Shown here piece by piece: positions 5,141 to 63,073 of a stretch of DNA of 64,000 nt; the stretch's first letter is position 1, and every line of letters begins with the position of its first letter. The position numbers were made by a program, and so were the translations under genes. Under the pieces are notes generated by a model. That model searched no databases, was not told the origin of the DNA, and saw only the letters and a program-made list of their open reading frames with translations. The stretch is from Kappaphycus alvarezii (lineage: Eukaryota > Rhodophyta > Florideophyceae > Gigartinales > Solieriaceae). Location: the NCBI GenBank assembly GCA_002205965.3, contig NADL03000635.1, positions 496,001 to 560,000 on the forward strand, written 5' to 3'.

Positions 5141-6490
5141 TCTTAGGGATAAATGTCCAGAGGATTATATTCTCTGAACAAATTATACAGAGACGGAGGT
5201 ATTGCAAATGGAAAAAAGTGCTGCCGAAGTATCTTTGTGGGAATGAGAAGAGGTAGACAGTGTGGAGGTAAGAGAGGCTACAAAGGAGTACAGAAGGAGA
5301 AGACTCTACCACCTATGCTAAGGGACTAATATTGGAGAAATTTCTCCTAGGGAGGAAATTGACCTTCGTCTTCTGGATTAATTGGGTCTGCACTTAAAAT
5401 TTCCCTCAACTTGGTTGATTTCTTGTAGAGGAAGAAGTTTACCCAGCCTATATGGAGTTTCTGGCTAACCATAAAGCCTTAAACAAACATAATAATTACC
5501 ACAAAATGCATTGAAGGGAACTGTGTGGACGAGAAAGACTAATAATGGATAGTACCGAGATAAATATCTGTATTTAATCATTACATATTTAGTCGTCGAG
5601 ATAAGATACAAACAATTCCTCCAAAATATCCATAAGTCCCTACAGATTCCACCGAGTGGCCCAGAATAGTAGATAAACTCCTCTGACATAACAAGCTACT
5701 CCATCCTCTCCTCACGACCGTCAACCTCCGACCTCCCCAGCAGATGAGTCCGAAATTAAAATTAATCTTTCTCTCTCCTCTCCGTTCTCCGCAGAAGCAC
5801 CCTCACGGTTGTACTCCAGTGGCTTCCATGGGTCCACCCAGTCCCCCCACCTTTCGATCTCTTCATATAAGCCTTTGCTTCCTCCTTCTCGCCTACTTCC
5901 TCCTCTACCTCCCCTACCACATTTCGGCCTCCTCGAAGCAGTGACAGCAAACCCACTCTCGAACGATTTCCAGGTCCATACTTCTATGGTATTCTTCGTA
6001 GTCGGTTGGCTATTGGCCGAAGAGGTCAGGGCGTTGATGTCATTACTGGTTCTGGGTGCCTAAGCATAGGTAAGGGACGGGAGGACATTGGTCCTGTTGA
6101 GGAGAAAGGAAAGACAGCTGATAGGGTGGCTGATGACAGGGTTGTTGCTTCAACGAAGTTTATATCGAACTTGAAATACGGCGATGTCTTCGAAAAGTTT
6201 CACAGCGTTGTGCGAAATACAAAAAGCGAGGCAATTTCGCGGCTTTGAATTTTCATATATCTAGAGCAACAAAAAAAAATGCTTGGTAAAATATCGGAAT
6301 CTACTTTGAGGGACGAAGGGGATCACGAGTCGAATAATTTATTTTCGAAAAAGGAGGACCAAATCTTCAAACGTAACGCAGAAAATGAAGCAGTACAGCG
6401 AATGATGGACTCATAAAGAAAAAAGACTACAGTTTCTTTTTTCGTTGGTAGAAAAGGTTGGAACACATTTTTTGAAAAAGAGAGGTCAAT
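5141..6490 (-). repeat. Decayed copy of the approximately 1.5 kb LTR-like unit (copy E)
   Basis: Collinear, strongly diverged similarity to the intact unit at 22941-24441. Its start has AGGGATAAAT, at 5270-5330 there is GGCTACAA.G..G and TCTACCACCTATGCTAAG, near 5610 CTCCAAAATATCCATAAG, and near 6360 TCTTCAAACGTAACGCAGAAAATG. Between about 5950 and 6040 the minus strand still reads a version of the unit's N-terminal protein module (DLFGQ, stop, PTDYEEY, RSMDLEIVRE) with an in-frame stop. No target duplication is recognisable at this divergence. Confidence 0.55.
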
Positions 6491-13601: not shown

Positions 13602-14960
13602 CGATAGGTATAAATATTTAGGGAAAGAGATGCTCAGAACTAATTAACCCAAGAAGTAGGTGTTGCAAACGACAAAAGAGCTACCATGGTATAGTTGAGA
13701 GAACACAAAGAGGTAGCTGAGGACAATAGTTCAAGGGACTACAAGCGAGTATGGAAGGGGCATGGTCCACCACCTTTGCTCTTAGACCAGCGTAATAAGC
13801 ATTTCTTGCGTCTGAAGTTGGCTCTCAGCTTCCTAAATAGTTGGGAATGGACTTTAGGTTTTCTTCCAACTAGATTCAATAATCCAAGAGATTGCTGTTT
13901 AACAATGTTGTATTTAAATTTCAGGTGACCTTAAAGTATCAAATAAGTGTCTTAGCTACCGTATGATGCACCAAAACAAATCATATGGCTGATAAAGACT
14001 AACTATAGGATAATTTCAGAATATATATCTACCAATACATCTCACAACCATTTTATTTGAGTTCAGAACTAAAATAATCCTGCAAAATATACATTATTTC
14101 AATAAAATGTCTAAACGTTCCGTCGCACAACTCAGAATGATAGATGGCCTCATCAGACATGTTAAGATCCTGCAACCCTTCATCACAAACCTCAGCTCCA
14201 TCCCAGCTCGAACAGTCAGAGATAAATATTGTGGCCTCCTTCTCCCCTCCGTGTCCCTCAGCAACTCCCCAACAGTTTTACACCGTCGGTTTCCATGGGG
14301 CTACAAAGTTCTTCTTATCCTGAGATCCCTCCAAATCCACCTCAGTCTCCTCTAAGTCCTCTGTGTCCCCTATGAAGAGCCAACAAGCCCAATACCGAAA
14401 ACACTGACGCTCCATTCTTCTGAAGTACTCATCGAGGTCCATTGGCCCATTATCGACCAAGTCTAGGCCAATAATGGGACGCGGAGTCCTATTTGATTTG
14501 TTGATGGTAAAAGACAGGCGGAAGTGGGTCGTGTTGATTGAAAATTCGGGTGAGCTTATGTGGTTGTTGGTGGTAGGGATGATGCTTCAGCGACGGTTCT
14601 ATAGCACTTTAAATTGGGGCATGTATTCAGTAACTTCCACAGTTCTGTTGAAAGAAAAAAATGGAAGGGATATTGCAGACTTGAATTTGCATGAATTTTG
14701 GGGCAGATAAAAACCTGTTAGATAAGATATAGGAACTTATTTTGGAGACAGAAAAGAGTCACGAGTTGAAACTTTTCCTTTTGAAAAGAAGCCCGAAATA
14801 TTCAAAGATAAATTAGAAAGTGGAGTGGTACAGCGAAATAGGATTCTTCATATGAAAGGACTTTGAAGAATTTGATTTTGGAAAAGAGGATAGTTTTAAA
14901 CAATAAATATTCAAGGAGTTGTGGGAAAGTACCATTTATCCATAAAAAAATGCCCTTCTC
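13602..14960 (-). repeat. Decayed copy of the approximately 1.5 kb LTR-like unit (copy D)
   Basis: Starts CGATAGGTATAAATATTTAG, collinear with GATAGGGATAAAT of the intact unit. It continues through ACCCAAGAAGTAGGTGTTGC, GGCATGGTCCACCACC and GTCTGAAGTTGGCTCTCAG, then TCACGAGTTGAAA and GAGTGGTACAGCGAA near 14750-14840. On the minus strand 14278-14480 encodes IIGLDLVDNGPMDLDEYFRR, a diverged form of the unit's N-terminal module, and the downstream acidic part is partly retained. The right end is estimated from the intact copies' length. Confidence 0.65.
14278..14490 (-). pseudogene. LTR acidic-protein ORF, diverged copy D
   Basis: A minus-strand frame carries the recognisable module (G-L-D-L...NGP.D.DEYFRR) followed by an acidic stretch (DTEDLEETEVDLEGS). 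Function unknown. It is shorter than the intact ORF at 29044-29616 and its C-terminal half is lost. Copies this diverged still matching in the same residues suggests either long coding constraint or a short remaining homologous block; an alignment would decide. Confidence 0.5.
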
Positions 14961-20900: not shown

Positions 20901-21910
20901 TTACCGGCAAACAACACCGATAAGAAATGAGTAAGAAAATTCTTCGCGTAGACCCAGCTCTCTAGTTCCTAATCACAGAAACAGCTCTCAATGTAGTCAG
21001 CGGAACCTACGTTGAGGAACTTCTCCGCAGTGTACAAGAATAATTTTGGAAGCTCTTTAAGCTTAACAACGAGTGGTCCGAAATGAAATAAGAATAGGCG
21101 ATAACCTCTGATTTTATCAGCTTTATACAGGAAAAAAAGGGCAGAATTGTATTTGCAGACCAAATTTTGTACCTGTGAAGATTGCGATGCGTATTAGCTC
21201 GCGCACAGATCATTCAAAAGTTTCCGATTTATGCGAGTGCAATTAACATACCTCAAAAATTCCAGGCGAGACTTTCTCTTCGTGAGTACATAGCTTTCAA
21301 ATATTACCCACTAGATGTTCTACTCAAATCTGTCGCAACTATTGAAACGGGTGAACACAGCAACTAAATAAGCAGTCTATAATCTTATTCAGCAAGAGAT
21401 ACCAAAACTGCACATCAAGACCTTTCGTATAGTTTTATTGCAGGACTCACTACTCGCAAACAACCTATATACTACGTTACAGCTCAGAAATATCGTATTT
21501 ATAACTGATGGTGGAGATAGAGTAGCATCTATTTAGATTAAACCCTGAAATCTATTCGAGTCACTAGATTGGCAATTCATGGTGAAGAAGTCGATTTTTC
21601 TAAAACGTTTAATGTTTTGAATGCACTTTCAGAAGATTTAAGACTATATCAGTCAAGCATATTCCTTTATAACTGCTGAACGACAGAAATTTAATGTTTG
21701 GTTTCATTTCGAAGATATTCCTCACATCCGGGAAGCGAACGATGCTCGACGTTGCCGCTGCCAGATTGTTCCAGCATTCCATAATCTATCCTAGATTTTT
21801 CAATAAAATGTTCCCTTCCCCATCCCTTTTTGTCACTTTGACCTGACTAATTTCTTCAGCGATGGATACATTACCGGCATCCGTCAACTTTTTATCCTTT
21901 CTGTTTTGTA
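14961..21910. other. Featureless region; no supported genes
   Basis: About 7 kb without a frame I recognise. The purine-rich part at 16450-16930 and the AT-rich part at 17700-21400 contain only short frames. The longest open frame (15411-15833) is listed separately. Confidence 0.4.
15411..15833 (-). CDS. Unknown ORF, about 140 codons
   Basis: A 140-codon open frame on the minus strand. I do not recognise the product. It has no obvious signal peptide, membrane segment or metal-binding motif; its middle is basic with repeated Ser/Thr (for example RRSTITRLPS) and it contains SIVSKYPQAFKKN. It lies in a transposon-relic landscape with no supporting neighbour, so it may be a chance frame. Confidence 0.2.
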   Translation of the reverse strand: MIFYSSKKSKLQIRDGINAPEVTQRDCASLVGNSLLIKHPLSATSLSVAERTVYDYLSCNDVGVSGGRLTSPPIEHLQTFPVRPITSLIPMVARRSTITRLPSLRNMANSIVSKYPQAFKKNLLPPLNFRGMQTVRFTHL

Positions 21911-21916
21911 AACTTT

Positions 21917-22843
21917 TCATCTCTTGCCCTTATTCGCTTCCCGCGTCCGATAAAGTTGCAAGTCTGTTATTTTTTTAGACCAGTAGTTGCTCTCGTGGTG
22001 CCCGTAACGGCCGCACTTGCCACAAAGAGTATTTCTGTGTGGATTCTCGGGACACCTATTTGCAAAGTGTCCAGGCTTGTGACAGTAGGAGCAGACTTCT
22101 GCTGCCTTCGGGATCCCAGACTGACCCTTCTTAATGGTAAGAGTAAGGCTCTCCAACTGCGAAGTTATCATGTCAAGTCGATTGTCGAACCGGGTTTCCT
22201 GCCGTTCTTCCGATTTCTTGACATCGCTCCTGACAGATTCCAATGCCGCTGCACTGGTAGCTGGATTGAAAGTTTTGTTCAGGATGAACGGAGAACATTG
22301 ATTTACGGCCCCGTTTCGGTATATTACTCAGAGATTGAAATGTTTCCGAATTTTTAACGAACTCGACTATGGTACCCTTAAGTTCATCAATAGAGTGAAG
22401 GCCCGTGATGAGAAGGAAGTCAGAGAGACGCTAATCCTGCATTGCCGCCTTGCGTAGCGTTCCGTACTTGGCTTGGGCGTTGAAACCAGTCTTTTCGTAG
22501 AGATCACACAAGTATACCAATGAGCTTAATAAATCGTCGAAGTTGAGCCGGGCCTCTATGGCGGCACGAATCATCTCATCTGGTTCCACCTCCTTAGCAT
22601 ATTCTCCCATAAGCCACTCACATACCTCACCGAAGTTGCGCCCACTACCATCAAGGGACCACCCTTCAATAAACTTAGCTTTGTATTTGACTTTTGCGTC
22701 ACCAGAAAGATATGCGAAGATACTTGCGGCCTTCTCCTCATCGCTTTTTTCTAGCATTAAAACATTACCATATGTGTAAAAAAACTCTTCAACGTCTTCA
22801 TTCTTGCTCCCTGTGATCGATATACGAGCAGTATTATGATCCA
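21917..22843 (-). pseudogene. gag: LTR-retrotransposon gag, nucleocapsid with two zinc knuckles
   Basis: The minus-strand ATG at about 22843 starts MDHNTARISITGSKNEDVEE, followed by a helical capsid-like region (EEFFYTYGNVLML, IFAYLSGDAKVKYKAKF). After at least one stop or frameshift (about 22430-22250) it continues into a C-terminal part with zinc knuckles CSYCHKPGHFANRC and CGKCGRYGHHESNYW (CX2CX4HX4C, the second lacking its final Cys). This layout is gag of a Ty3/Gypsy-like element; the product would package element RNA. It begins about 100 bp inside the LTR-like unit at 22941-24441, where a gag gene behind a 5' LTR is expected. No pol is visible downstream (below 21900). Confidence 0.75.
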
Positions 22844-22924
22844 TTGCTGCAAAAAAATAAAAGAAAATCAAACTGCAAGCGGACCTAATACTTCACAACT
22901 CGATTACCTCGGGAGCAACCCCCT

Positions 22925-22939
22925 CCACAAGAGTACCCA
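22925..22939 (-). other. Putative primer-binding site next to LTR copy A
   Basis: On the minus strand the sequence immediately after the LTR end (CTATCT) is T then TGGGTACTCTTGTGG. A TGG-initial segment 0-3 bases past an LTR is the usual tRNA primer-binding site. I did not match it to a specific tRNA. Confidence 0.4.
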
Positions 22940-22940
22940 A

Positions 22941-24441
22941 AGATAGGGATAAATCGGCAGGGGAAGAGATCCTCAGAACCCATTACCCCAAGAAGGAGGT
23001 GTTGCAAGCGACAAAAGTGCTAACGTGGTATAGTTGAACGAACAAAAAGGAGTGGATAGGAAAAACAGTTGAAAGGGCTACAAGCAAGTATGGAAGGGGC
23101 AGGTTCTACCACCTATGCTTAGTGGCTAGCGTAAAATAAACTCTTCTTGGGTCTGAAGTTGACTCTCAACTTCCTAACTATTTGGGACTGGGGTTGAAGT
23201 TGTCTGCCAACTTGCTTGACCTCTCCACGAGGAAGCAGTTTACTGAGCTTATATAGACTTTTGGATACCCCTAAAGTCTGAACAAAACTACAGAAGGTAC
23301 CAGAAAGTGTAGACAAACAATTTGTGTGCATGATATACTCTAAAAAAAGATACCTAAGAAACTAACAATTAATGAGGTCCTCTTATTTCCCATTCTCTAA
23401 ATCAGATCCAAACAGCTCCTCTAAAATATCTATGCTGTCCAAGCAGTCCCAAAAAAATATCTACGAACGGCCCATAGCTCTCTTTTCCCTCCTTGGAGAT
23501 ATCTAAACTACTAAAGATATCTTCATCCGGTTCCAGCGTCGGCACCACTTGTTCCATACTCTCCAGTCCAGGCCCCACCAGTCCAACACTTTCCATGCCC
23601 CCTGTTCCCTCATCCACCTCGTCCTCGTCCCGTCCTCCCCATCCTCCTCCTCCTTCTCTTTCTTCTCCCCATCCTCCTCCCCATCCTTTTCCCCATCCTT
23701 CTCCCCATCCTCCTCTTCCTCCCCATACTTCTCCCGAGTCTCATACATTAGCTGAGGGGCTAACCATTCCTCGAAGGACTCCCCACTCTCCTCCTCGACT
23801 TTCTCAGTCTCGTCCTCACTGACCTCCCCCGCCTCTTCTTCTATGGAGAGGCGGCGAACGAACTCGATGATTTTCTTCTTAGTTTGCCGCCGGATGTAGT
23901 CGTCGGCATCGGTTGGCCCGTAAGCGGCGAGACGGAGGCCATTGATGGGACGGGAAGGGCGGATTTTGGAGATAGGGACAGAGGGGCGATTTGACGTCAT
24001 ATTTCTGGAAAAGGGGTGAGTGGGGTTGCGGATGTTGACAGAAATGTTAATCAGCTTATCGAATTGTTGGCGGTAGGAGTGATGCTTCAGCGATAATGCT
24101 ATAGCACTTTAAATAGAGACATGTCTTTGGTAATCATCATGGTCTTGGTAAAAAAAAGGGGATGCTGTGGCCTTGCATTTGCATGAATTCGGGGGCATCA
24201 TAAAAATCTGCGTGATAAAATATCGTAACTGTATTTGGGAGGCGAAGTGACCACGAATTGAAAGGCGTCTCTTTGGAGGAGGAGAACCAAATATTCAAAC
24301 ATAAAATAGAAAATGGAGTTGTACAGTGAATTTGAATTCATATAGGAAAAAGATATTCAGAATTTGTTTTGGAAAGACAAAGGTAGGACGATTGGTCAAG
24401 GACGGATTTCAAGTTGCGAACAGGACCTTTTCTGTTCCGAC
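22941..24441 (-). repeat. Approximately 1.5 kb LTR encoding an acidic protein (copy A, 5' LTR of gag element)
   Basis: A 1501 bp unit nearly identical to the reverse complement of 28601-30103 and homologous to 33654-35141. Read on the minus strand it starts TGTCGGAACAG and ends CCCTATCT, consistent with LTR ends (TG...CA, the last base changed). It lies directly upstream of a gag gene in the same orientation, with a TGG-initial primer-site candidate between them, so it is the expected 5' LTR. Internally it has a TATA-like box (complement of CTTTAAATAG, about 24108), then the acidic-protein ORF (24000-23402, frameshifted here), then about 450 bp without coding. Flanking target duplication is not clear, as expected if the other LTR is missing. 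Confidence 0.75.
23402..24000 (-). pseudogene. LTR-encoded acidic protein, copy A (frameshifted)
   Basis: Starts MTSNRPSVPISKIRPSRPIN and stays identical in plan to the intact copy at 29044. The conserved N-terminal module has G-L-R-L, YGPTDADDYIRRQ and the basic stretch KKKIIEFVRRL, followed by Glu-rich repeats made of a 12 bp unit (DGEK/DGEE). A frameshift near 23630 throws it into a basic frame; the original frame resumes as a second open segment (23617-23402, with DEGTGGMESVGLVGPGLESM). Function unknown; the acidic low-complexity C-terminal half suggests interaction with basic partners, which is inference only. Confidence 0.6.
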
Positions 24442-24790
24442 AGTCCCATCACCAACAGGTTAGTGTCCTTCTCCGTGGCCGTAAAAACTCCACTCTCGCG
24501 TCATGAAATCTGCCCATCGACGACTTCAGGTGTTTTATTGGAATTCTGCGACAAACACCTAGGTGGAAGATTGGAGCTCCCAGCTACTAGCTGACGGGCG
24601 CGGAGTGTTCGATACCGCAGTCCAGTTTATCATAGGCCTGTTTCTGTGGGGAAAAAGAGCAGCCACGAAAGGCGTTATGGGATTCTCTGGGATGTCCGAG
24701 TCATGCCAATTTCCTTAGTCCTCGCCTTCCTCTCCGTAGCAGTCTATCAAATCGGACATGGGGACGGTGAAACGAACACCGTAAATGGGT
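24442..24790. other. Unassigned flank of LTR copy A
   Basis: About 350 bp with no recognisable gene. It does not resemble the RT gene that flanks the other two LTR copies. Confidence 0.4.
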
Positions 24791-24879
24791 TTGAAATGTT
24801 GGGTAAGATGGGGCGGTTTACTTAATATTCCTGATAAGAGCAATCACAGACGAGGCCAAAGTAGGTAGGTGGAACAGTT

Positions 24880-24919
24880 TTTGGGTGGTTTACTCTTGGA
24901 AGATATATCTGATCTACTA
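24880..24919 (-). mobile_element. Short 3'-end copy of RLE family 1
   Basis: About 40 bp matching the family 1 terminus (TTTTGGGTGGTTTACTCTTG, AGATATATCTGATCTACTA). Its right edge is the target of the next insertion. Confidence 0.65.
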
Positions 24920-25021
24920 TGGGGAAAGTTTGATTGTTTTACTATTGGAAGATATATCCGATCTATCCCACGGTTTTCCAGACAACTACAATCGACTCAA
25001 AAAGGGTATACCGACACAGTA
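24920..25021 (-). mobile_element. 102 bp 3'-end insertion of RLE family 1 into another copy, with target duplication
   Basis: Flanked by ATCTACTA at 24912-24919 and 25022-25029 (8 bp). The left duplication is itself the end of the preceding short copy, so one truncated copy landed at the edge of another. Contains the 3' UTR from the complement of ATTACTGTGTCGG to the terminus. Confidence 0.75.
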
Positions 25022-25375
25022 ATCTACTAGGGTAGCCACTTACGTACCCTGGGAACGGAGGTTCTCTGGAATATATACACTTTCAAGCTGTCGCCGTAAG
25101 TATCGCTCAAAACCCTTTCCCAAAAATCAACTGGCGTTATTCTGAGCGAGTCTGGCCGCGTGACGAGCGAACAATGTCGCTGCGCATCAGCAATCGGAAC
25201 GGCTGCCTGTGCGGCAATATCAGTCGCAACCCGGTTGGCGAAGTCCCGACAGGTCGTGCCAGGCCCGTGGAAAGTGGAAGGTTAATGAAGCGATGCCCAG
25301 GACTCTTTGAACGTAACAACTCGGCAAAGTGTGAATGTCCTTGCCAAGGCGAGCATTGTTAAGGGTGTTTTTGGG

Positions 25376-27184
25376 TTAAATGGGGTGGTTTACTTATTTT
25401 TCCGGATAACCGCAATGTTTGGTGGGTTTACTTAAATGGGTTGGTATAAAGAGGCGTTTATACTGAAACAGATGACCAGTAGATTGGGTGAGACAGAGTG
25501 GAACTAGACATAACAGGGAAGAGGCCTAACTTACGTAAGGACGAAGATACTAGGAGAAAAGAGGTTCTCTGGAACATACTAACTTTCACGTAGCGGCATT
25601 AAAACTCACTCAAAACCCCTTCCAGCAGACAACTGGAGTTAATCTGGACAAGTCTCGCCGCGTGACGAGCGAACAGTGTTTGCGTTGCGTGAGCAATCGG
25701 AACAGCCGCCCGTGCAGCAATGCCGGTCGCAGCCAGTTTCGCAAAGTCCCGAGCAGCCGGATGCCAGCCCCACAATGTGGAAAGTAGAAGGGCAATGAAG
25801 CGATGCCCAGGGCCTTTTGGACGTATCAATTCGGCAAATCGAGTGTCCTTGCGAAGGCGGGCATGGTTAAGGGGCTTTAGTGGGCATCGCGCCATGGAGG
25901 GAAGGCGGGCGGGGGTCAATGGGTGGATGACAGTTACGTCGAAAAAGTCTGTCCCCCCGTCCTCTCCGAGCGCCTTGATGTCCGGGCGAACTGCGTGGCC
26001 GCGTTGTGGCGGCTCGAGGACAGGGTTTCAGGCAGCTTTGGAGAGATCTGCACCAAACGAACGTGTCTGCGAGTCATGCCCCCACCCGCTTGTAGATCCA
26101 TAGGCACAGCACAGCGCGTAGTCACCTTACTGATCCATGAGGGTCGTGCATCCCCCTTTGGAGCATTTCGAATCGAAAGGAAACAGTGGCACCCCGCAAT
26201 AGAACTGCAAGCACGTCTTTTAATTGCCGTCCGTGATGTAGGTACCCAACCCCGGAGCCGGTTGGCATGACAGCCAGTCCTTGCAAACCTCCACTGACAA
26301 CGAGGCTCGGAATGGAACAGTCCTCTCATCTCCCTTCGGCATGGCATCAAAGTCCTTTTCCTCAACTAGGCGGACGAGTTGCCCCTGCCCAAACCTCTGC
26401 ACGGAGTCGATAGCCGTGAAATGGACCACCTTCTCGGGTGCCACTTGTGTCTTCCAGTCGTCGTGCGCTCGAACTGCGGATTTTTACGAATGAAGAGCAG
26501 TGTTCGGTAGCACAGCCAGAAGGATAGAGTAAACGGCACGCGTGAGGGACACGGAGGAAAGGAACGCAGCCGCCGCAGTGAGCTTTGCAGAGCGAAGCCC
26601 AATGCCAAAAGTTGGCTTGAGGGGCCAAAGGGCGCCACAGGGAGCTGCAATTCCCGAAAAGTATTGCTGTCCAGAACCCCGCCAATCAACCCCCGCAGTG
26701 TAGCTTCAACAGCGGAATCGAATTCCACAGCCCCCTTAGCAGTGGAATGAGGGGAAGTACACGTAGGAGGTAGTTAATGCGACATACGCTGAAGCAGGTC
26801 CGTAGTAGATGGAGAGCTACTTGAGTGTCCTCCAAGGTGAACAAATCGCTGAGGAGAGGCTTCAGCGAAGCGCCATGCTTTGAGAATTCGCGCTCCACGA
26901 ATAGGTCCGATCCGATTGGGGCGCGGAGCACTTTTGTCCCTTCACTATTGTCCTGGCGAAGGTCGGCTGGGAAGGACTGCTGAACAGACGGGGGGGGCGG
27001 TTGGCCACCAGACGGCACACTTATCCATGCGGAGGTGCAAACGCAAAGCGCGCACCTCCACGGAAGAGAGGAATTCTAGTGCCGTTCGAATGGCTTCGTG
27101 GATGCCAACTATGTACCCATCGTCCAAGTACCACAGCTGAAGGGGTACAGAAGGCCTGCCTGTGGTGTCGCCCACATTTTCCAG
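25376..27184 (-). pseudogene. RLE non-LTR retrotransposon (element 2): RT motif C, thumb, zinc finger, endonuclease, 3' UTR
   Basis: 3' half of a minus-strand element whose 5' half lies at 27651-31387. In coding order: RT motif C LQLWYLDDGYIVG (about 27130), a thumb with KVLRAPIGSDLF and QVALHLLRTC (26700-26960), a degraded Cys/His finger near 26100-26180 (GDYALCC, H), then RPDIKALGEDGGTDFFDVTV and LRKDTRF (25800-26000), the RPD...D-V-T-V...K pattern of a restriction-like endonuclease. It uses its RT to copy element RNA at a nick made by the endonuclease. Several frameshifts make it nonfunctional. The 3' UTR ends near 25376 with the complement of AAATGGGGTGGTTTACTTA, abutting the next truncated copy. 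Confidence 0.75.
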
Positions 27185-27640
27185 GCAGGTTCTCAGTTCC
27201 CGCGTCATTTTTGGCAGCCTCCAACAGAAGAGTGAGGGCCTTCAACCCGATGTCCTCTCTGAATGCGGCGCGAAATGAAAAGCAGAGAAGGTATCAATCC
27301 TTTATCGCGACCTCCACCAGAGGTAGGCTCGTGCCTGTGCCAATCTCCACTCTGGCACCGGATGCATGTGCAGTGCTAAATGACGTGGCAAGGAACGAGG
27401 CTGTGAGGGCACTGGAGATGTACGGAAAGTTTCGGAGGGATTTGATGCAAGAGCACGCTGCAGCAGCCGTCATGTTCAATACGGCCTGCTTGATGGCTGG
27501 CCTGAAGGTAGCATTTTAGGGAGCGTAGTTCCTTCCCCATTACGGTGTCAGTATACCCTTTTTGAGTCGATTAGGGTTGTCTGGAAAACGATGGGATAGA
27601 TCGGATATATCTTGCAAGAGTAAAACACTCAAACGTTTCC
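27185..27640 (+). mobile_element. 456 bp 5'-truncated RLE family 1 insertion, with target duplication
   Basis: Plus-strand copy containing the end of the endonuclease gene: FNPMSSLNAARNEKQRRYQ (K...Y motif), PVPISTLAPDACAV, and the C-terminus MQEHAAAAVMFNTACLMAGL ending at a stop near 27519. Then comes the complete 3' UTR (GGGAGCGTAGTTCCTTCCCC ... AAGAGTAAAACACTCAAACG). Flanked by CATTTTcCAG (27175-27184) and CATTTTgCAG (27641-27650), a 10 bp duplication with one difference. It sits inside the RT gene of element 2, between RT motifs B and C, and defines the family 1 3' end used to recognise the short copies elsewhere. Confidence 0.8.
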
Positions 27641-27650
27641 CATTTTGCAG

Positions 27651-27789
27651 CACAAGGGAGAATGAAAGTGGACCCAGAGGACCATCTTGCTGCATGCCTA
27701 CTGATAGAGGTTGGATAAGGAAGGTGGAGGGAATGAAAGAAAGTTTGCCAGCTCTGGCCAGAATTTACTTGGAGGTGCTCAAGTCGCAA
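27651..27789 (-). pseudogene. Element 2 RT segment with motif B
   Basis: The minus strand reads SVGMQQDGPLGPLSFSLVLQ, matching RT motif B (GVQQGDPLGPLLF...) of this class. It resumes as motif C just past the plus-strand insertion at 27185-27640. In the coding direction its start follows directly after the unexplained insert at 27790-28496. Confidence 0.75.
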
Positions 27790-28496
27790 CTTATGTAGAA
27801 CTATTTCGCCACACTCGCACTCAACTCTTACTCTAACTAAACCCTATCCATGTGAGCGGGACACTCAATACTACCAATCATCACAAGACATGACATAGTA
27901 ACACTGGCACAGACTCATGCCAGCTTATAACTAACAGTGCACAACAGTGCACAACACTACATCACGTTATCATGTGTATGCACTAACTCAACAACTGCAC
28001 GTAACTACACAATCACTACTCGTCCCCAAATTCACAACACAACTCGTACACATGCAACGACATGTATACAGGCCACTACTGTAACCGCCACCACTGTACT
28101 TGACTCATCACCATAGTGCATCAAAACCCATCAACCTGTACTGCATGTACACGTACATACCTGTCCACTCTGTACTGCACAGCCGTACTGTACGGCATAG
28201 CCATATGTACTAGCTACACACGTGTACGCAAGAACAACTCACTAGAGCCACAATACTTGTACGTACCACGTTGCGTGTGAGCATTTGCAGTAGCCAACCA
28301 GAAGTCCGTTTCACGATGAGTTTGAGATGAGGCGCATATGCGCTTTCCAAACGGCACCCTCCAAAACAGCCCATGCTCCCCTGCACTTTTGGTTTTCAGT
28401 GACAGCACAGGGTTCACAGCCAACACCTACCACGCCTCGGAGCATATCAATCCCACAACACGGATGACCCGGGTTTACCGCATACGTGTAATTGAC
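27790..28496. other. G-poor insert of unknown origin inside the RT gene
   Basis: About 700 bp separating two RT segments that are adjacent in the protein (motif A region ending FPELLP, then motif B). From about 27800 to 28230 the plus strand is rich in A and C, with very little G and many short palindromes (GTAC, CATG, TGCA). The last 260 bp are ordinary. Neither a gene nor a target duplication could be seen. It is probably another insertion, but its class is unknown. Confidence 0.5.
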
Positions 28497-28600
28497 TCAG
28501 GGTAAGAGCTCCGGGAACCTCTGCTCGACCTCCTTCAAAAATGCACTTCGGCTGACCAGGTTGATTGCGTTTTGAAAGTCAACGGTTAACAGTGCATACT
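28497..28600 (-). pseudogene. Element 2 RT segment with motif A
   Basis: The minus strand reads YALLTVDFQNAINLVSRSAF then LKEVEQRFPELLP, the motif A region of RLE-type RTs (VDF.NAFN.VSR..FL..V). The catalytic Asp is kept. It resumes in frame across the LTR insertion at 28601-30103: removing that insert plus one duplication restores an uninterrupted RT. Confidence 0.8.
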
Positions 28601-28925
28601 GCCGGAAGAAAAAAAGGGTCCTGTTCGCAACTTGAAATCCGTCCTTGACCAATCGTCCTACCTTTGTCTTTCCAAAACAAATTCTGAGTATCTTTTTCCT
28701 ATATGAATTCAAATTCACTGTACAACTCCATTTTCTATTTTATGTTTGAATATTTGGTTCTCCTCTCCAAAGAGACGCCTTTCAATTCGTGGTCACTTCG
28801 CCTCCCAAATACAGTTACGATATTTTATCACGCAGATTTTTATGATGCCCCCGAATTCATGCAAATGCAAGGCCACAGCATCCCCTTTTTTTTTACCAAG
28901 ACCATGATGATTACCAAAGACATGT

Positions 28926-28938
28926 CTCTATTTAAAGT
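28926..28938 (+). promoter_or_regulatory. TATA-like box of the LTR
   Basis: CTATTTAAAGTGC lies about 110 bp upstream of the ATG at 29044 and is conserved in copy A. It is the likely LTR core promoter, which would place the ORF in the transcribed part of the LTR. Confidence 0.45.
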
Positions 28939-29043
28939 GCTATAGCATTATCGCTGAAGCATCACTCCTACCGCCAACAATTCGATAAGCTGATTAACAT
29001 TTCTGTCAACATCCGCAACCCCACTCATCCCTTTTCCAGAAAT

Positions 29044-29616
29044 ATGACGTCAAATCGCCCCTCTGTCACTATCTCCAAAATCCGCCCTTCCCGTCCCATC
29101 AATGGCCTCCGTCTCGCCGCTTACGGGCCAACCGATGCCGACGACTACATCCGGCGGCAAACTAAGAAGAAAATCATCGAGTTCGTTCGCCGCCTCTCCA
29201 TAGAAGAAGAGGCGGGGGAGGTCAGTGAGGACGAGACTGAGAAAGTCGAGGAGGAGAGTGGGGAGTCCTTCGAGGAATGGTTAGCCCCTCAGCTAATGTA
29301 TGAGACTCGGGAGAAGTATGGGGAGGAAGAGGAGGATGGGGAGGAGGATGGGGAAAAGGATGGGGAGAAGGATGGGGAGAAGAAAGAGAAGGAGGAGGAG
29401 GACGGGGAGGACGGGGACGAGGACGAGGTGGATGAGGGAACAGGGGGCATGGAAAGTGTTGGACTGGTGGGCCCTGGACTGGAGAGTATGGAACAAGTGG
29501 TGCCGACGCTGGAACCGGATGAAGATATCTTTAGTAGTTTAGGTATCTCCCAGGAGGGAAAAGAGAGCTATGGGCCGTTCGTAAATATTTTTTTTGGGAC
29601 TGCTTGGACAGCATAG
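29044..29616 (+). CDS. LTR-encoded acidic protein of unknown function (best copy)
   Basis: 190 codons from ATG. I do not recognise the family. Residues about 1-55 form the conserved module: RPSRPINGLRLAAYGPTDAD, then YIRRQTKKKIIEFVRRL. Residues 60-100 are Glu-rich with FEEWLAPQLMYETREK, residues 100-135 are DGE/EKE repeats built on a 12 bp unit, and the C-terminal part is more mixed (GGMESVGLVGPGLE, QVVPTLEPDEDIFSSL). Compared with copy C the last approximately 30 residues are lost through a length change in a T-run near 29590. No signal peptide or membrane segment. It lies entirely inside an LTR. Diverged copies keep the N-terminal module, suggesting it was once selected. Role unknown; it could be an accessory protein of the LTR element. 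Confidence 0.65.
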   Translation: MTSNRPSVTISKIRPSRPINGLRLAAYGPTDADDYIRRQTKKKIIEFVRRLSIEEEAGEVSEDETEKVEEESGESFEEWLAPQLMYETREKYGEEEEDGEEDGEKDGEKDGEKKEKEEEDGEDGDEDEVDEGTGGMESVGLVGPGLESMEQVVPTLEPDEDIFSSLGISQEGKESYGPFVNIFFGTAWTA

Positions 29617-30103
29617 ATATTTTAGAGGAGCTGTTTGGATCTGATTTAGAGAATGGGAAATAAGAGGACCTCATTAATTGTTAGTTTCTTAAGTATCTTT
29701 TTTTTAGAGTATATCATGCACACAAATTGTTTGTCTACACTTTCTGGTACCTTCTGTAGTTTTGTTCAGACTTTAGGGGTATCCAAAAGTCTATATAAGC
29801 TCAGTAAACTGCTTCCTCGTGGAGAGGTCAAGCAAGTTGGCAGACAACTTCAACCCCAGTCCCAAATAGTTAGGAAGTTGAGAGTCAACTTCAGACCCAA
29901 GAAGAGTTTATTTTACGCTAGCCACTAAGCATAGGTGGTAGAACCTGCCCCTTCCATACTTGCTTGTAGCCCTTTCAACTGTTTTTCCTATCCACTCCTT
30001 TTTGTTCGTTCAACTATACCACGGTAGCACTTTTGTCGCTTGAAACACCTCCTTGGGGTTATTGCTTCTGAGGATCTCTTCCCCTGCCGATTTATCCCTA
30101 TCA

Positions 30104-31387
30104 CATACTCTACCGATTAGCCATGCTCCTCATAAAGTCGCCGTACAGCGTGGGCAATTGCCTCAGACCCTCCTGACGTTGCTTCTCCCAACTGTAGTGG
30201 CTGAATGTATTGGGAAGCCTTTTCGGAAATGCGAGTCAGCAAACATCTTCCCACCAAGCGACGGAATTTCTCGCCCACGGCGATCGGTCGGATTCCTCCG
30301 GCCGGTTTTAGGAGTTTCGTAAGCGGCGCACCTGCGATCCATGCTGATATAGCTGCAGGGGCCTTCTCGTTGGCTACCAAGTTGACCACACTAGTTAGAG
30401 CAGCTAGCAAGCTTCGAACGCCATTGACAACTGGTGGGACCTGTAAAAGCTCAACTAGGTGTTTTGAGCGGAGTCCAGAACCCCCTGTGGCGCTACCCCT
30501 TGGAAGCTCCGAACGCACCGGAGAACAATTTCTGCAGTGAACTGGGGTCAAGCCAGCAACGAGTCAGGGGAAGCGGGTTGGTACGACTCCGTAGTTGGAG
30601 AGCGCTGTGGGTGTTTCTCCCGAAGAGTGGAAACCACCTCTGTGGAGGGGCATGCGATCCCCGAAGATCCCAGCGCTCGCGCTGCCTTGCCGTGAGCGCC
30701 CTCCTTTGCAAGCCTCAGGGCGCGCCGTTTGTTGATCTCCGCTTGTTCCTCTTCAGTTCCCTTATGCAACGGGCGGGACGTTGCCGAGGCGTTTGCCGTT
30801 CGCATCAAAGTTTCGTACTATCCATCACGCCACAGTTGAATGCGTGTAGCAAAAATACGAGAATTTGATGCTGTGCCCGGAACGAGGGTTGAGAGGGTGG
30901 GGGGCTTGGGATTGGCAAGGATCGCGGACGGGAATGGGAACAAATTAATGAATGCCTCCACAGCTTGAGGATAACCATGTGGTGCGTTCGCGTATTCTCC
31001 AAGGATAGCTAGCTCTCTTGAAATCCGCTGACGTTCACGTCGCGGTATGTGTTGCGCTAGCGGAACGTGAATAGTGAAGATTGTGTGCAAGGGGGGAAGC
31101 GGCTGTCTCCTCGGGCCGTTCAAGGAGGGAGCGGTGGTGGGAAAAGGTGGAGGAGGAGAGGCATTCGGGATGGGCTGTGTTTCGGGTGGATTGATTGAGG
31201 CTGAAGCTACCTCAGGGGGTGTAACCTCGTTCGGTACACGAGATGCAGATGGTGCTCGAGGAGTGGAGCGAAGTTGCGTGGGTAAGAGCGGAGTGTACCG
31301 AGGAGGGGTTGAGAACCTGTCGCCGCACTCTGGGCATGGCCAATATGTGTAGGAATGAAGGCCATTTTGAAGCTTACGCCCAACCGT
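30104..31387 (-). pseudogene. Element 2 5' part: N-terminal zinc finger, linker and RT start
   Basis: In coding order on the minus strand: a Cys-containing finger (HSYTYWPCPECGDRF, about 31350-31310), a Pro/Ser-rich linker, then RRALRLAKEGAHGKAARAL, VVSTLREKHPQ (30550-30760). Then comes the RT start GSATGGSGLRSKHLVELLQ (about 30480), APAAISAWIAGAPLTKL, GGIRPIAVGEKFRRLVGRCL and IAHAVRRLYEEHG at 30120. This is the amino-terminal RT region of RLE-type elements. A stop follows EEHG and there are further frame changes. The 3' end of the next element (31388-36000) abuts it directly. Confidence 0.75.
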
Positions 31388-32640
31388 TGAGCGGGAAATT
31401 GGGTTGGTTTACTGCGAGTAATGGAAAGGTTGGCAGTCCTATTTAATTGTAATCAAACCATTAACAGGACGTGTGACAGCACGTGCAATACAAGTCTTTG
31501 AGCGTGCGTACCAACTAGAAAGTCGCTGGTAGACCGGTTGACAAACAGGCTGCGTTGGAGGTGATCATCAACGCTGCGTGTCGTTGGAGGAAAATTGTCT
31601 TCACCCTGGAGTATGGCAAGGAACGTGGCTGTGAGGGCACTGGAGACGTACGGAAAGGTTCGGGGGTTTTGATGTAAAGGCACGCTGCAGCAGCCGCCAT
31701 GTCCAATGCGGCCTGCTTGATGGCTGGCCTGAAGGTAGCATTTTAGGGAGCGTAGTTCCTTCCCCATTACAGTGTCGTTATACCCTTTTTGAGTCGATTG
31801 TGGTTGTCTGGAAAACGATGGATAGATCGGATATACCTTCCAAGAGTAAAACACCCAAACGGTTCCCCCCTGGAGTATTGGTCCAAGGCTCGGTTGGCGA
31901 CCGCTCGGGCTACCTCCGTGATGTGGCGGAACGCTATTGGATACCACCCCAAGTGTGGAGATAGGAACGGGCACGATTATGTTCCTGCCAGGGAAGCAGG
32001 CTAAGAATCCCTGGTATTTCCGTAGCTTGTCCGCGTGGGCTGCGTTCAAGATGGTAACGAGGTTAAAGGTTCTCATTCTGAGATGAGAAGGAGCCAGCGG
32101 GTTCGCGAAGGCCACATCGAAATAATCGGTGCCGCCAGTGGCGCCCGTTGCCGTCATGTCAGGCCTTATTTTGTGTTCCCGTGCGACCGGGGTTCGACGG
32201 CGGGATGCCTTGCGCCTAGGCTCACGTCGTTACTTAGTAGGGTGACCTGGCCCTCGTGGCTGACGATCCGTTGCGCTCCGTACCTGCAGTGGATCAAGTG
32301 GTCGCCGTGGACGTCCACTGTTTCTGGGCATTCGACTCTTGGGCATGTGGTTACTGGCTCGAAGAGCGGGGCTTGGCAATAATATTTGAGCCACACCGAG
32401 AAATGTCGGGTGCCAATTGCGGTCTTCAAGCCTGTTGTGGGAGGGCAATGGACCCATTCCTTGGCACCTGAAAGAGTCATTGAGGTCCTGAAGGCCTGTG
32501 TACGGCAACTGCCCACTGGAAGCTCTTCATATATTGCAGCATGGACTGCGTCAGTCAGTGTCTTTTGCGGTCGAGGGTTAGAGCAAAAAGACTGAATGGG
32601 AGCCTGTCGACCGGGCGACAAGATGAATTCTACTGAGTGA
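31388..32640 (-). pseudogene. RLE retrotransposon element 3: zinc finger, endonuclease and 3' UTR
   Basis: Minus-strand continuation of element 3. A finger with CPRVECPETVDVHGDHLIHC (about 32270-32330) is preceded by WLKYYCQAPLFEPV. The endonuclease has TDYFDVAFANPLAPS and DKLRKYQGFLA (K...Y), then PVPISTLGVV and, past a nested plus-strand insertion (31615-31867), VKTIFLQRHAALMITSNAAC with the C-terminus near 31515. The 3' UTR ends about 31388 with the complement of GAAATTGGGTTGGTTTACT, directly joined to the 5' region of element 2. Several stops. Confidence 0.75.
31615..31867 (+). mobile_element. 253 bp 5'-truncated RLE family 1 insertion, with 11 bp target duplication
   Basis: A plus-strand copy of the last approximately 130 coding bases of the endonuclease gene (with GCGGCCTGCTTGATGGCTGG) plus the 3' UTR. 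Flanked by a perfect CCCTGGAGTAT at 31604-31614 and 31868-31878. It lies inside the minus-strand endonuclease gene of element 3; without it the host frame joins up. Truncation point and clean duplication are typical of target-primed reverse transcription. Confidence 0.88.
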
Positions 32641-33647
32641 CTGCCATCTTGGCCTCCGCGTAAGTTGCCAAGTCGCTCACTTCAGACGGCGGGCAGCGCT
32701 CGCCTAGCTTGTTTGTATGTGAGCAAGACGAGAGGAAGGCGGCTGCGGCGATGCCTTTGGCTGATTTAAGGCCGATTCCTGGTGTAGGCTTTTTGTCCTC
32801 AATTTTTTGGGCGGGAGTTGTAACTCGCGAAAGACTGTACTGTCGAGGACGCCTCCTGCCAAAGTCCTCATTGACTGTTCCATCAGCTGGTCGAAATAAT
32901 TGGCTCCTTCGATGGTGTACGATGGCGGCACGACCCGAAGGAGATAGCCCAACTTACATACCCCTAAGCAGTTCCTTAAAATCTGGAAGGAGACCTGTGT
33001 ACCCTGAAGTTCCGTGACGGCCTACATAAAGGGTTCCAGAGAGAGCACGTTGTTGGTAAAGTAGTGCCTCTTGAAGTCATTTGAGCCGATAGGCGCATTC
33101 AGGACCGCAGTTCCCTCGCTGTAGACTTGTTGGATCTCTCGGGGGTACGCGGCTGTGACGACCACTTCTGGAGCCGTGGGCTACCATATTTTACACTTGG
33201 GAAGTGCCAGGTGTAGACTGAGGCGCGTTGTCTCGGGAGAGGACAGAATTGCGATAGCTTTCAACAGAGAGACATTTTGGCCACTATGTAGCCGTTATCA
33301 TGATACCACAGCTGTAGGAATATCTCGTGGACCTCTTTGTCGCCCTTCGACAACGTCAGCATGTCTCGTATCTTCAGGGTTAGCCTATGAAGGACCATGT
33401 CGAATAGCAAGCCGCTGAACGGGTCGCCGTGCTGGACACCTATCACACTAGGTAGTGTATCGAAAACCGTCCACAAACGTGCTGGATCGTTGTAACAGTA
33501 CATTAACCAGCGCAGCAATTGTGGAAAATACATTTGAACCGCTTCGAGAAAAGCAGATCGACTGCAAAGATTGAACGCTTTCTTAAGATCTACTGGATGC
33601 AGCGCAAAGTCTGATGAGTTGCCACCTGTATTAAACATTCGTCGTTT
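32641..33647 (-). pseudogene. Element 3 RT: motifs A, B, C and thumb
   Basis: In coding order: FALHPVDLKKAFNLCSRSAF (motif A, about 33560-33620), GVQHGDPFSGLLFDMVLHRL (motif B, near 33400-33450), LQLWYHDNGYIVA (motif C, near 33290; the usual YLDD has become YHDN). After further breaks comes the thumb GYLLRVVPPSYTIEG, GVLDSTVFRELQLPP (32800-32950). The changed motif C would abolish polymerisation. The segment starts directly at the LTR insertion (copy C). Confidence 0.78.
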
Positions 33648-33653
33648 GGCGTG

Positions 33654-35141
33654 TGATAGAGGTAAATCGTCGGGAGAAGAGAAACTCAGAACCAACTACC
33701 CCAAGAAGGAGGTGCTGCGAGCAACAAAAGTGCTACCTTGGTATAGTTTAACGAACAAAAGGAGTGTATATGGAAGAGAGTTGAGAGGTCTCCCAGCAAG
33801 TATGGAAGGGGTAGGGTCTACCACTGATTCTCTGTGACCGGCGTAGGAAAAATATTTCCTGGGTTCCACTTTGACTCTAAACTTCCTACTACTCGGGACT
33901 TGGCTTGAAGTTGTCTGCAACTTGCTTGACTTCTCCATGAGGAAGCAGTTTACTCAGCTTATATAGACTTTTGACTACCCCTAAAGTCCGAACAAAACTA
34001 CAGAAGGTACCAGAAAATGCAGACAAACAATTTTTGTGAATGACATACTCTAAACAAAATATACTTAAGAAACTAACAATTAATGAGGTCCTCTTGTTTC
34101 CTATTCTCTAAATCAGATCCAAGCAACTCCTCTAAAATATCCGTGCTGCCCAAGCAGTCCCAACAAATATCGGCTAACGGCTCATAGCTCTCTATTCCCT
34201 CCTGGAAGATATCTAAACTACTAAAGAATTCTCCATCCGGTTCCAGCGTCGGCACCACTTGTTTCATACTTTCCAGTCCAGGCCCCACCAGTCCAACACT
34301 TTCCATGCCCCCCGTTCCCTCATCCTACTCGTCCTCGTCCTCATCATCCTCCTCTTCATCCTTGTCATCCTTGTCATCCTCCTCTTCCTCATCATCCTCC
34401 CCGTTATTACCCTCGTAGACCAATTCAGGGGCTACCGACTCCTCAAAGGTCTCCCCAGCTCCCTCCTTGATGTCACACTCCCGCCCCTTACCTACTTTCT
34501 CCGCTTGATCCTCAATTAGAAGTCGACGCACGAATTCGATCACCTTCTTTTTTGTTTGCCGGCGCAGGAAGTCCTCGCGGTCAGTAGGTCCGAAAGGGAG
34601 AAGGGGAATAGAGTTTAGGGGGCGGGGATGGAGATTTTTGGAAATGACTTTCGAGGGGCATAGATTGTTCATTTTGGTAGGCTTTGGGGAATGGGAGGTA
34701 ATGGAGTAAATTTTGGGTGTGTGGGGGGAGAGGTGTGAAGATTAAAATGATCGAGGACGTTTGGAACCTGGAATAAAGGGGTTTAAATAGGCTTTCAGCG
34801 CAGGTTCTATATATTAGGAATAGGTAAAATAAATCTGCAAGGGATTTTTCAGTAGTGCATTTGCGCCCTTTTTTTCAAAAAGGCGAATTTGGAGGAGGAG
34901 GTAAGCTAAAAGTTAAAAAAGCTTGATTCGGGATCGATTCAGAGGGGTAGATACAGTGTAAAAAATCTGGATAAAATGGGTGTAAATTTGGAGAGGACCG
35001 AGGTAGTAATGAGCAAGGCCCAGGGAAGACGACGAAGGACCGGAACAATGAGCAAATTTGTACAAGAAGAGCTATTACAGGAACTAAAGGTCTGTAGATG
35101 ACGGCGACAAAAAAATCCGTTCCTATCAGCACGCCCATAAC
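33654..35141 (-). repeat. Solo LTR, 1488 bp, with acidic-protein ORF (copy C)
   Basis: Homologous to copies A and B but clearly diverged. On the plus strand it begins TGATAGAGGTAAATCG and ends CCATAACA; it is flanked by GCGTG at 33649-33653 and 35143-35147 (perfect 5 bp, or 6 bp with one change; the shared end base shifts one boundary by one). It sits in the RT gene of element 3 shortly upstream of RT motif A, the same RT interval as copy B, but in the opposite orientation relative to the RT. Sense orientation is minus, with the ORF at 34672-34073. Confidence 0.82.
34073..34672 (-). pseudogene. LTR-encoded acidic protein, copy C (one in-frame stop)
   Basis: Starts MNNLCPSKVISKNLHPRPLN and keeps the module LLPFGPTDREDFLRRQTKKK then VIEFVRRL. 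The central acidic region has diverged in repeat composition (long E/D runs). A TAG at 34327-34325 replaces a Val codon (GTG) of copy B. Past it the frame continues through GGMESVGLVGPGLESM to a natural C-terminus, SDLENRKQEDLINC, at 34073. Apart from that stop the frame is about 200 codons, giving the best view of full length. Function unknown. Confidence 0.6.
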
Positions 35142-35147
35142 AGCGTG

Positions 35148-36010
35148 CACAGTAGTGTCGGCCCCGGCCCGCGTGGCAATGCCAACTTTGATTGGCTGTG
35201 AGTAGCTCGCCGTCTTTGTAGAGGATTGTGACATGAGGCAACTACTCGCCAAACGTCTCAGTGTCTCGTCTACGGAGATGGGACGGGGCGTCATGTCCGC
35301 CTTATCAAGCGGGGTGAGTGGTGTTCCCGCGATCCACGGAGCAAGAGGGGCTGGTGGTTTTCCAGATGCTAGGGCATTGGCGATTTTGGTAAGCGAATGC
35401 AGCATTCCTTCACGAGAGGAGGAAGACGGAGCACGTAGCAACTCGTTGAGGTGGGAGGGGCGAAGGCCCTTGCCGCCGGGAGCGGAGCCAGGTTTGAACG
35501 AGCGGACTGCACGAAGGACCTCTTCCATGGTTATTTTGGTAAGCGAGAGGATGGAAGCAGGCGGATAGAACTTGGGCCCGTGGGCTGCCGGGGTTGCCTG
35601 TGAGTGTTTTTCACGGAGTGCGTCAGATACAGCTTGTGTTGCCGGTAGGACGCCGAGTTAGTTTAGTGCTTGTGCCGCCTTTCCGTAAGCGCCCTATCTG
35701 GCAAGGCTCAATGCTCTTCTGATGTTCACCTGCTTTTGTTCTCACTGTGACAGCTTTTTCGAGGACCTGCAGGTGCACTGGGTAAGCGCTGCTTGCCAGA
35801 GGGTATCGTATTGGCCCGCGTTCCATAGTTTATCCGTTCCCTGAATATTTCTGCATTAGTGTGAGCGCTTGCGTCGTCATCGCCGTTTGGTAGTTTCCAA
35901 CTCGATGTGTTACAGAGCATCACTGAAGGGAAGAGAAAGACTTCGCTTACTGCATCCTGAATAAATGAAAATATTCTATTACCAGGTAATGTAATTCCGT
36001 CCCAGACCAA
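35148..36010 (-). pseudogene. Element 3 5' part: linker and RT start
   Basis: Minus strand: AEIFRERINYGTRAN (about 35850), RRALSLARYGAYGKAAQAL in a shifted frame near 35690, then VLRAVRSFKPGSAPGGKGLR, PSHLNELL (about 35480), APLAPWIAGTPLTPL, RPISVDETLRRLASSCLM and TTVHAV at 35150. This matches the amino-terminal RT region of element 2 block by block. A stop in the linker and other breaks make it a pseudogene. No N-terminal finger is evident above 36000. Confidence 0.72.
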
Positions 36011-51449: not shown

Positions 51450-51826
51450 ATGGTGGTGGTAAATCTTTATGCGTTGTACAAGGTCTCACAGAGACGTGCG
51501 GAGGGTATTCATAAATTAAGTACGGATGCGGGCGGCGGGTAGAAACCTGTCGCGCCTGCATTATTTGGAGACTAAATGCAAAGCGGGTAACGGAATCGCG
51601 GAGCTCCTGTTGAGGGGAGGAACCGCGACGGGAAGCAGCGAAGGAAGCAAGGTAGCGGAAAAACCCCTTGCGGTCGTCACCTAAGGGGGAACGTTTGGGT
51701 GTTTTACTCTTGGAAGATATATATGATCTATCGCCCAAGGCGCCATAGACATCAATCCCGACGGGGGGGGAGGAGGATATCGTTTTGGTTACAGTCAGTG
51801 CCGTAATGACGATGTTTCTCGCGCTC
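51450..51826 (-). pseudogene. RLE family 4: endonuclease C-terminus and 3' UTR (host copy, distal part)
   Basis: Minus strand GFFRYLASFAASRRGSSPQQ, FAFSLQIMQARQVS, RRPHP: the C-terminus of the endonuclease, as at 52230-52393. It is cut by a 45 bp insertion (51687-51731) and continues the host copy whose proximal part is 52460-53690. Confidence 0.72.
51687..51731 (-). mobile_element. 45 bp 3'-end insertion of RLE family 1, with target duplication
   Basis: The smallest insertion seen. Compared with the uninterrupted copy at 52222-52245, it sits exactly between GTCGTC and GCCCAAGG, flanked by CACCTAAGG (51678-51686) and CGCCCAAGG (51732-51740), a 9 bp duplication with two changes. Confidence 0.82.
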
Positions 51827-51828
51827 TT

Positions 51829-58781: not shown

Positions 58782-58802
58782 CGAGCGGCTTTTTGATTCT
58801 AC

Positions 58803-59135: not shown

Positions 59136-59195
59136 TCCCGCGAACCAGCTCCAGACGAATCTGTCTAGGTCGACTATCACACTTGCACATCAACC

Positions 59196-60035: not shown

Positions 60036-60070
60036 AGACGTCGCCTCCGCGACTCTTTCTTTCTGTCCCT

Positions 60071-62025: not shown

Positions 62026-62142
62026 CTCTCCAGCAATCTGTGCTTACAGCGGCCGGGTTAGGGAATACTTCGGGGGGAATACTATTGCACGGATCATGCC
62101 AAAGGCACGTACCCCAAACACCTGGCGCTCGAATGAGATACT

Positions 62143-63030: not shown

Positions 63031-63073
63031 CCGCAGTCTCGAAGCAAATCCTTTGAATTTGGTTTTTCTCTAT

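Follow-up and report, generated by a model that had tools for sequence, protein, structure and literature searches.

The 64,000-nucleotide stretch analysed here (the window) comes from the red alga Kappaphycus alvarezii (contig NADL03000635.1, positions 496,001 to 560,000 of the forward strand). A preliminary description of it proposed that three homologous units of about 1.5 kb are long terminal repeats (LTRs) that encode a protein of their own. The reference unit for our analysis, at 28600–30103 on the plus strand, is a solo LTR of subfamily A, one of four LTR subfamilies defined below. Reading its ends and flanks showed that it has TG...CA ends and is bounded by perfect copies of the target duplication CATAC at 28595–28599 and 30104–30108 (plus strand). 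The unit at 33654–35142 on the minus strand is a solo LTR of subfamily B, also with TG...CA ends, flanked by the duplication GCGTG at 33649–33653 and 35143–35147; its identity as an LTR was confirmed, and it ends one base later than first described. Both 5-bp duplications were thus as reported, and these two copies are solo LTRs, not parts of one element. By eye, an open reading frame (ORF) at 34875–35528, which spans the edge of the subfamily B LTR, is LINE-like (LINE, long interspersed nuclear element).

The third unit, at 22941–24442 on the minus strand, is a 5' LTR of subfamily A that is 98% identical to the LTR at 28600–30103. TG...CA ends had been attributed to this unit as well, but its inner end is CT. 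The accompanying claim that it lies directly upstream of a gag gene in the same orientation was borne out. The primer-site sequence TTGGGTACTCTTGTGGAGGG adjoins it at 22921–22940 (minus strand), and the remaining interior at 21765–22940 (minus strand; 83% identical DNA) consists of a leader and gag in three pieces. The gag pieces lie between 22874 and 21798, in the orientation of the LTR, and are 77–83% identical to gag of the complete element described below; the matching interior extends for only about 1.2 kb. Two further copies, noted earlier as diverged, proved to be relatives bearing remnants of the LTR protein. One, at 13603–14960 (minus strand), is of subfamily C type, with an N-terminal protein module at 14281–14505 (minus strand). 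The other, at 5141–6490 (minus strand), is the most diverged, with a protein remnant at 5917–6009. The ends first given for these copies (5141–6490 and 13602–14960) showed no target duplication.

The genome assembly (336 Mb, 884 contigs) was searched with the 1503-bp unit at 28600. At least 41 matches were listed, 35 of them near full length, with 86–98% identity when the query itself and one short 75% piece are excluded; because only the best 40 of 6023 first-look candidates were scored, the copy counts are lower bounds. A full-length element combining this LTR with gag and pol had been named as something to look for, and one was found (L009, on C614). Its two LTRs are 99.3% identical and surround an interior of about 5.9 kb, with GGGAC on both sides by eye. 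The interior gave Pfam matches to RVT_1 (E 1.9e-29), RT_RNaseH (2.5e-27), rve (7.9e-9), and Integrase_H2C2 (1.3e-8). Two zinc knuckles in gag were recognized by eye (zf-CCHC at E 0.056, below cut-off), as was the protease region; with these by-eye assignments the gene order is that of Ty3/gypsy elements: gag, protease, reverse transcriptase, RNase H, integrase. The primer site reads TGGTACTCTTGTGGAG, from which a tRNA 3' end can be predicted. The expected T-loop plus the primer-site complement had 17 exact matches in the genome and 36 with at most one mismatch, whereas the reversed control had no match; attempts to excise and fold a tRNA from these matches did not succeed.

A script sorted 38 copies in loci L009 to L045: 17 had exact 5-bp duplications, 10 of the remainder had a primer site, 1 was a 3' LTR, and 10 were classed as other, a group that includes some 3' LTRs, among them the second LTR of the complete element. 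It had been suggested that duplication-flanked copies without TG...CA ends and without gag or pol nearby would refute a functional protein encoded by the LTR; the 17 copies, classed as having no adjoining primer site, retain TG...CA and therefore look like solo LTRs. These results confirmed the units of about 1.5 kb as true LTRs; the Ty3/gypsy element to which they belong is abundant and has been active recently.

The ORF listed at 29044–29616 (plus strand) is real as listed and, as first proposed, places the protein inside the LTR: it is contained entirely in the LTR and precedes the second of two promoter-like boxes, on the U3 side of the presumed U3/R boundary. It encodes a conserved basic N-terminal module of 89 codons (29044–29310) and a variable acidic repeat (29311–29440; variability mostly 0.09–0.15). 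A C-terminal module follows at 29441–29662, which is joined to the rest in one coding frame only in copies elsewhere. An ORF of about 200 codons had been ascribed to each unit, and this did not hold for the full frame. Judged against full-length frames, the C-terminal third is frameshifted in the copy at 28600, and the ORF of the copy at 22941 is frameshifted in the acidic repeat. In the subfamily B copy the N-terminal module (34412–34672) and the C-terminal module (34097–34306; both on the minus strand) are separated by a stop codon. A full frame of 192–208 amino acids, ending (L/I)ENGK, was present in 11 of the 41 LTR copies examined, all 11 outside the window, and in none of the three window copies among the 41. 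Where 190–200 residues had been expected, the full protein has 192–208 amino acids in the 11 complete subfamily A copies and about 168 in subfamily C.

Variability was measured per 20-base stretch in 40 aligned LTR copies. It ranged from 0.03 to 0.12 upstream of the ORF, with values of 0.05–0.07 over the 40 bases immediately preceding the ATG (29044), and dropped at the ATG to 0.02–0.04 throughout the N-terminal module; it then rose to as much as 0.15 in the acidic repeat and returned to 0.02–0.05 as far as about position 29710. Substitution ratios resembling dN/dS (nonsynonymous to synonymous substitution) were obtained from Nei–Gojobori counts for shared changes, defined as those present in at least 3 of 39 copies (2 of the 41 were excluded). 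In the N-terminal module, 11 shared changes were synonymous and 7 nonsynonymous, giving a ratio of 0.18 in frame; the two alternative frames gave 1.51 and 1.08. Changes found in a single copy gave 0.64, as expected for decay after insertion. The corresponding shared changes in the C-terminal module within subfamily A were 4 synonymous and 9 nonsynonymous, with a ratio of 0.63 in frame and of 1.40 and 1.50 out of frame, a less clear result.

Further searches used the N-terminal modules of the copies at 28600, 33654, and 13603, with the best 150 of 6163, 6128, and 3365 candidates scored, respectively. Four LTR subfamilies (A to D), at or near synonymous saturation with respect to each other, were found to encode the same protein of about 170–208 amino acids. 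Many of the listed subfamily A matches form pairs or triples on one strand with a spacing of about 7.55 kb, as expected of element LTRs, and the listed subfamily C matches include four in series about 10.36 kb apart on C782. Two subfamily C copies (L101 and L102) share 98.8% identity along about 1.39 kb, and one of them is followed by TTTGGTATTCTTGTGG. Codon alignments were made with 26 ORFs: 10 of subfamily A, 6 of B (of 8 tried from 10 loci), and 8 of C plus 2 of D (10 of 12 loci). A larger set held 60 uninterrupted N-terminal modules, 32 of them distinct, in which the A–B value was averaged over 189 of 192 pairs; because interrupted modules were excluded, the ratios are somewhat lowered. 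With synonymous sites near saturation, the ratios for the N-terminal module were 0.19–0.21 for A–B, 0.32 for A–C, 0.19 for B–C, and 0.14 for C–D, and were beyond computation for A–D and B–D. Within subfamilies they were 0.27–0.58, and the most alike subfamily A copies (synonymous divergence, dS, under 0.05) gave 1.22, again as expected after insertion. The ratio of nonsynonymous to synonymous proportions (pN/pS) for A–B, C–D, and B–C was 0.32–0.50 in frame versus 1.01–1.67 in the other two frames. Neither the shared-change ratios nor those from subfamily pairs indicated constraint in another sense-strand frame of the module. The dN/dS comparison proposed in the preliminary description therefore gave values well below 1 in frame for both shared and deep changes, and of about 1 or more out of frame. 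These results showed that the N-terminal module is under purifying selection, and we conclude with high confidence that the LTR encodes a selected protein.

Several observations on the arrangement of these elements were made in the course of the searches. LTR parts seem to have been mixed between subfamilies; for example, locus L041 has by eye an A-type ORF under a B/C-like upstream region. On C679, C729, and C782, three to four LTR modules are evenly spaced on one strand, about 7.55 kb apart, or 10.36 kb on C782; they are perhaps tandem elements that share LTRs. Past the integrase core of the complete element, an extra coding stretch (L009:6500–7600) takes the form of two similar units with 35% identity over 106 residues (E 2.6e-18), and by eye the same region adjoins the LTR at the subfamily C locus L101.

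The TATA-like box reported ahead of the ORF was found at 28929–28935 (plus strand; TATTTAA), starting 115 bases before the ORF, and is designated P1. TATTTAA occurred 75–130 bases before the ATG in 22 of the 26 ORFs, comprising 9 of 10 in subfamily A, 5 of 6 in B, 6 of 8 in C, and both in D, as compared with a mean of 0.17 and at most 2 in base-shuffled upstream regions; because the sequences are related, the 22 occurrences are not independent events. A second box, P2 (TATATAA, 29792–29798, plus strand), precedes the presumed R-U5. A box of the form TATATAAG was present before the presumed R-U5 in the subfamily A, B, and C copies looked at, with patterns that were chosen after inspection of the same copies; the copies at 5141 and 13603 have weaker T/A-rich boxes there. 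From these positions we infer that P1 would serve the LTR protein and P2 the genomic RNA.

The N-terminal module of the protein contains RPS..I.K, RP.N, L, and GPTD.....Y.R at near-constant places, plus VRR. It is followed by acidic stretches and, in subfamilies A, B, and D, by a segment like GLVG...E.M.QVVP.LEPDGD. A pattern for the conserved acidic and hydrophobic C-terminal segment (SMDILEELFGSDLE and similar sequences) matched in 20 of the 26 ORFs. In subfamily D, one ORF of the two reaches it in frame; we take this segment to resemble an acidic/hydrophobic activation domain. The first 52 residues have an isoelectric point (pI) of 10.2–11.6, and the whole protein gave 4.05 as printed in all four cases computed, which is the lower limit of the program. 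In the 12 subfamily C and D loci fetched, EGVIVISDSSD was exact in 9, and the other 3 had EGVTVISDSSD, EGVIIISDSSD, and EGVIDISDSSG. A typical C copy differs from D in 8 of the 11 codons of this motif, in every case synonymously. By sequence the motif fits the SUMO-interacting consensus, V/I-x-V/I-V/I or V/I-V/I-x-V/I/L, often with an acidic flank (PMC2808386). Its conservation between saturated subfamilies argues against a chance origin.

The preliminary description did not recognize the protein and proposed profile searches, which also left it without a known family. No Pfam family reached its curated cut-off in any of three scans: the window ORF with matches listed to E 10, 13 aligned members to E 1 (31 families, of which 25 were shown, with cut-offs for one member), and 7 members to E 0.05. 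The best Pfam match, BUD22 (E 2.2e-5; 24.4 bits versus a cut-off of 37), lies on the acidic run of one subfamily B protein. A search of the PDB gave one sequence match, at E 0.35, and the profile search gave none at E up to 1. A known protein family was therefore rejected as the identity of the LTR protein, the existing matches lying on the acidic run. An origin from the element's own interior ORFs was also rejected: the sole match, of 35 residues at E 0.066, was not taken as homology.

Our preferred reading, to which we assign a probability of roughly 45%, is that the LTR protein is an element-encoded nuclear regulator that would raise transcription of the element or counter SUMO-linked silencing. 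The LTR of this Ty3/gypsy family would then carry a protein gene in its U3 part, driven by P1. The genomic RNA for gag-pol would be driven by P2, which lies some 0.86 kb downstream of P1, immediately ahead of the presumed R-U5. The protein would enter the nucleus, where its basic end would presumably bind element DNA or chromatin. Its acidic, activator-like end would either increase transcription within the element's own family or counteract silencing, the latter by way of the SUMO-type motif in subfamilies C and D. Expression, the assignment of boxes to RNAs, nuclear location, SUMO binding, and activation are all predictions from sequence. A broader version, which we consider doubtful, is that the LTR is a complete, self-contained gene (P1, ORF, and 3' end) for a nuclear, SUMO-aware regulator. 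The thousands of solo LTRs would then be a dispersed gene family whose output reports copy number and feeds back on every LTR of several element families.

Several results weigh against a nuclear regulator. The full frame is missing from 30 of the 41 LTR copies, and only 2 of the 6 subfamily B ORFs reach the C-terminal segment in frame. Two of the 9 shared nonsynonymous changes in the C-terminal module are stops, and the selection signal there is weak within subfamily A. Short motifs of the SUMO-interacting type are frequent by chance (PMC2808386), and one subfamily C copy has a D inside the motif core. The motif is absent from the aligned A and B ORFs, which have a Glu/Asp run instead, so it is not a universal mechanism. 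Finally, no relative with a curated match that would anchor the function was found in Pfam or the PDB.

Other roles can be read from the same features. The protein might be a chromatin or integration co-factor, with its basic end on DNA and its acidic stretch on histones, acting with the integration complex or at target chromatin. Strong charge polarity and the long Asp/Glu run in subfamilies A and B are consistent with this; however, few parts of the LTR are less conserved than the acidic repeat, no family reached a curated cut-off, and the BUD22 match covers the acidic run of one subfamily B protein, and we consider the idea unlikely. Less probable again in our estimation is a self-limiting repressor or dominant-negative protein, for which more LTR copies, including solo ones, would mean more protein and transposition held down. 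Ty1 p22 is a self-limiting factor of this sort. The gene is self-contained in the LTR, and 4 of the 11 full frames belong to duplication-flanked copies assigned to the solo class (L013, L014, L016, and L038); both points favor such a repressor. The C-terminal segment, however, is more activator-like, and any brake would be weak because candidates are many (6023–6163 at first look, with 40 and 150 scored) and many N-terminal modules score alike. We place lower still an RNA-binding or export factor like Rev, whose basic N-terminal end would bind element RNA; a basic module in a small accessory protein of an LTR element fits such a role, but no RNA-binding family exceeded its Pfam cut-off in the proteins shown.

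It is also conceivable that the block is conserved as a cis-acting element, of DNA or of RNA, and that the ORF is incidental. All three codon positions are conserved among subfamily A copies, and conservation continues about 50 bases past the stop, as a cis-acting element would predict. Selection is nevertheless specific to the reading frame both within subfamily A and between subfamilies, and the eight synonymous changes in the eleven codons of the SUMO-type motif leave every residue unchanged. A cis-acting element as the only function was therefore rejected for the N-terminal module, and overall we regard this explanation as highly improbable.

LTRs are ordinarily non-coding (PMC4667437). 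Mouse mammary tumour virus (MMTV) sag, which the preliminary description cited as the precedent for an LTR ORF, was the only LTR-encoded precedent that we recognized in literature searches aimed at ORFs inside LTRs; among the papers listed, we recognized none outside MMTV-type viruses. The sag gene lies mostly inside the LTR U3 and has a U3-internal promoter; its relatives were found mostly as solo LTRs (on 490 of 527 contigs), and they show a signal of purifying selection (PMC4667437). The protein described here is likewise encoded inside U3, given the presumed U3/R boundary; its host element, in contrast, is a Ty3/gypsy element in which no env was recognized. Pfam includes a model for Sag, which is a surface glycoprotein. 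No such family was among the matches of the window ORF (to E 10), nor among the 25 families shown, of 31, for the 13 members (to E 1), and the LTR protein gave no sign of being a surface glycoprotein. No sequence relationship to sag was found. Foamy virus Tas/Bel1 is a small accessory regulator with a second promoter and an acidic activation domain, features that the LTR protein would share if it activates; the tas gene, however, lies between env and the LTR, and the comparison is one of description. The remaining comparisons are also by description. Bdelloid LTR retrotransposons have an extra ORF3 of unclear role, but their LTRs, at 159–551 bp, are too short for such a gene (PMC5408684). Rice Retrosat2 resembles the present element in having long LTRs and an additional protein whose role is likewise unclear, ORF0, described as upstream of its gag-pol ORF, and the available part of that source does not place ORF0 inside the LTR (PMC3485330). 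What is new here is a coding LTR in a Ty3/gypsy retrotransposon, with a protein that is unrelated to Sag as far as tested; the coding LTR itself is known from MMTV.

Other repeats and genes were noted in the window and the genome. At 58798–63368 is a DIRS-like element, recognized by eye, with reverse transcriptase-like and recombinase-like ORFs (59196–63030) between 300-nt direct repeats that are 98% identical. Four inverted repeat pairs, 91–99% complementary and a few hundred bases apart, surround coding sequence that is LINE-like by eye at 51453–52774. A unit of roughly 500 nt is present in two copies at 25053–25838, with matching stretches 74–85% identical (families D17–D19). By eye, an EFL-type elongation factor gene is present in more than one copy, with frame breaks at L105 (C7) and an open segment at L106 (C462). 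The breaks are due to decay or to assembly errors, and the latter would bear on the count of broken LTR ORFs.

Recombination between LTRs is usually viewed as killing an element. With a protein conserved in the LTRs of four diverged subfamilies in one genome, such recombination would leave a regulator gene behind, and the leftover solo LTRs may still make an element protein. Any action of solo LTRs in trans on full elements becomes directly testable. If the SUMO-type motif works, it would also give a retrotransposon a point of contact with SUMO-based silencing.

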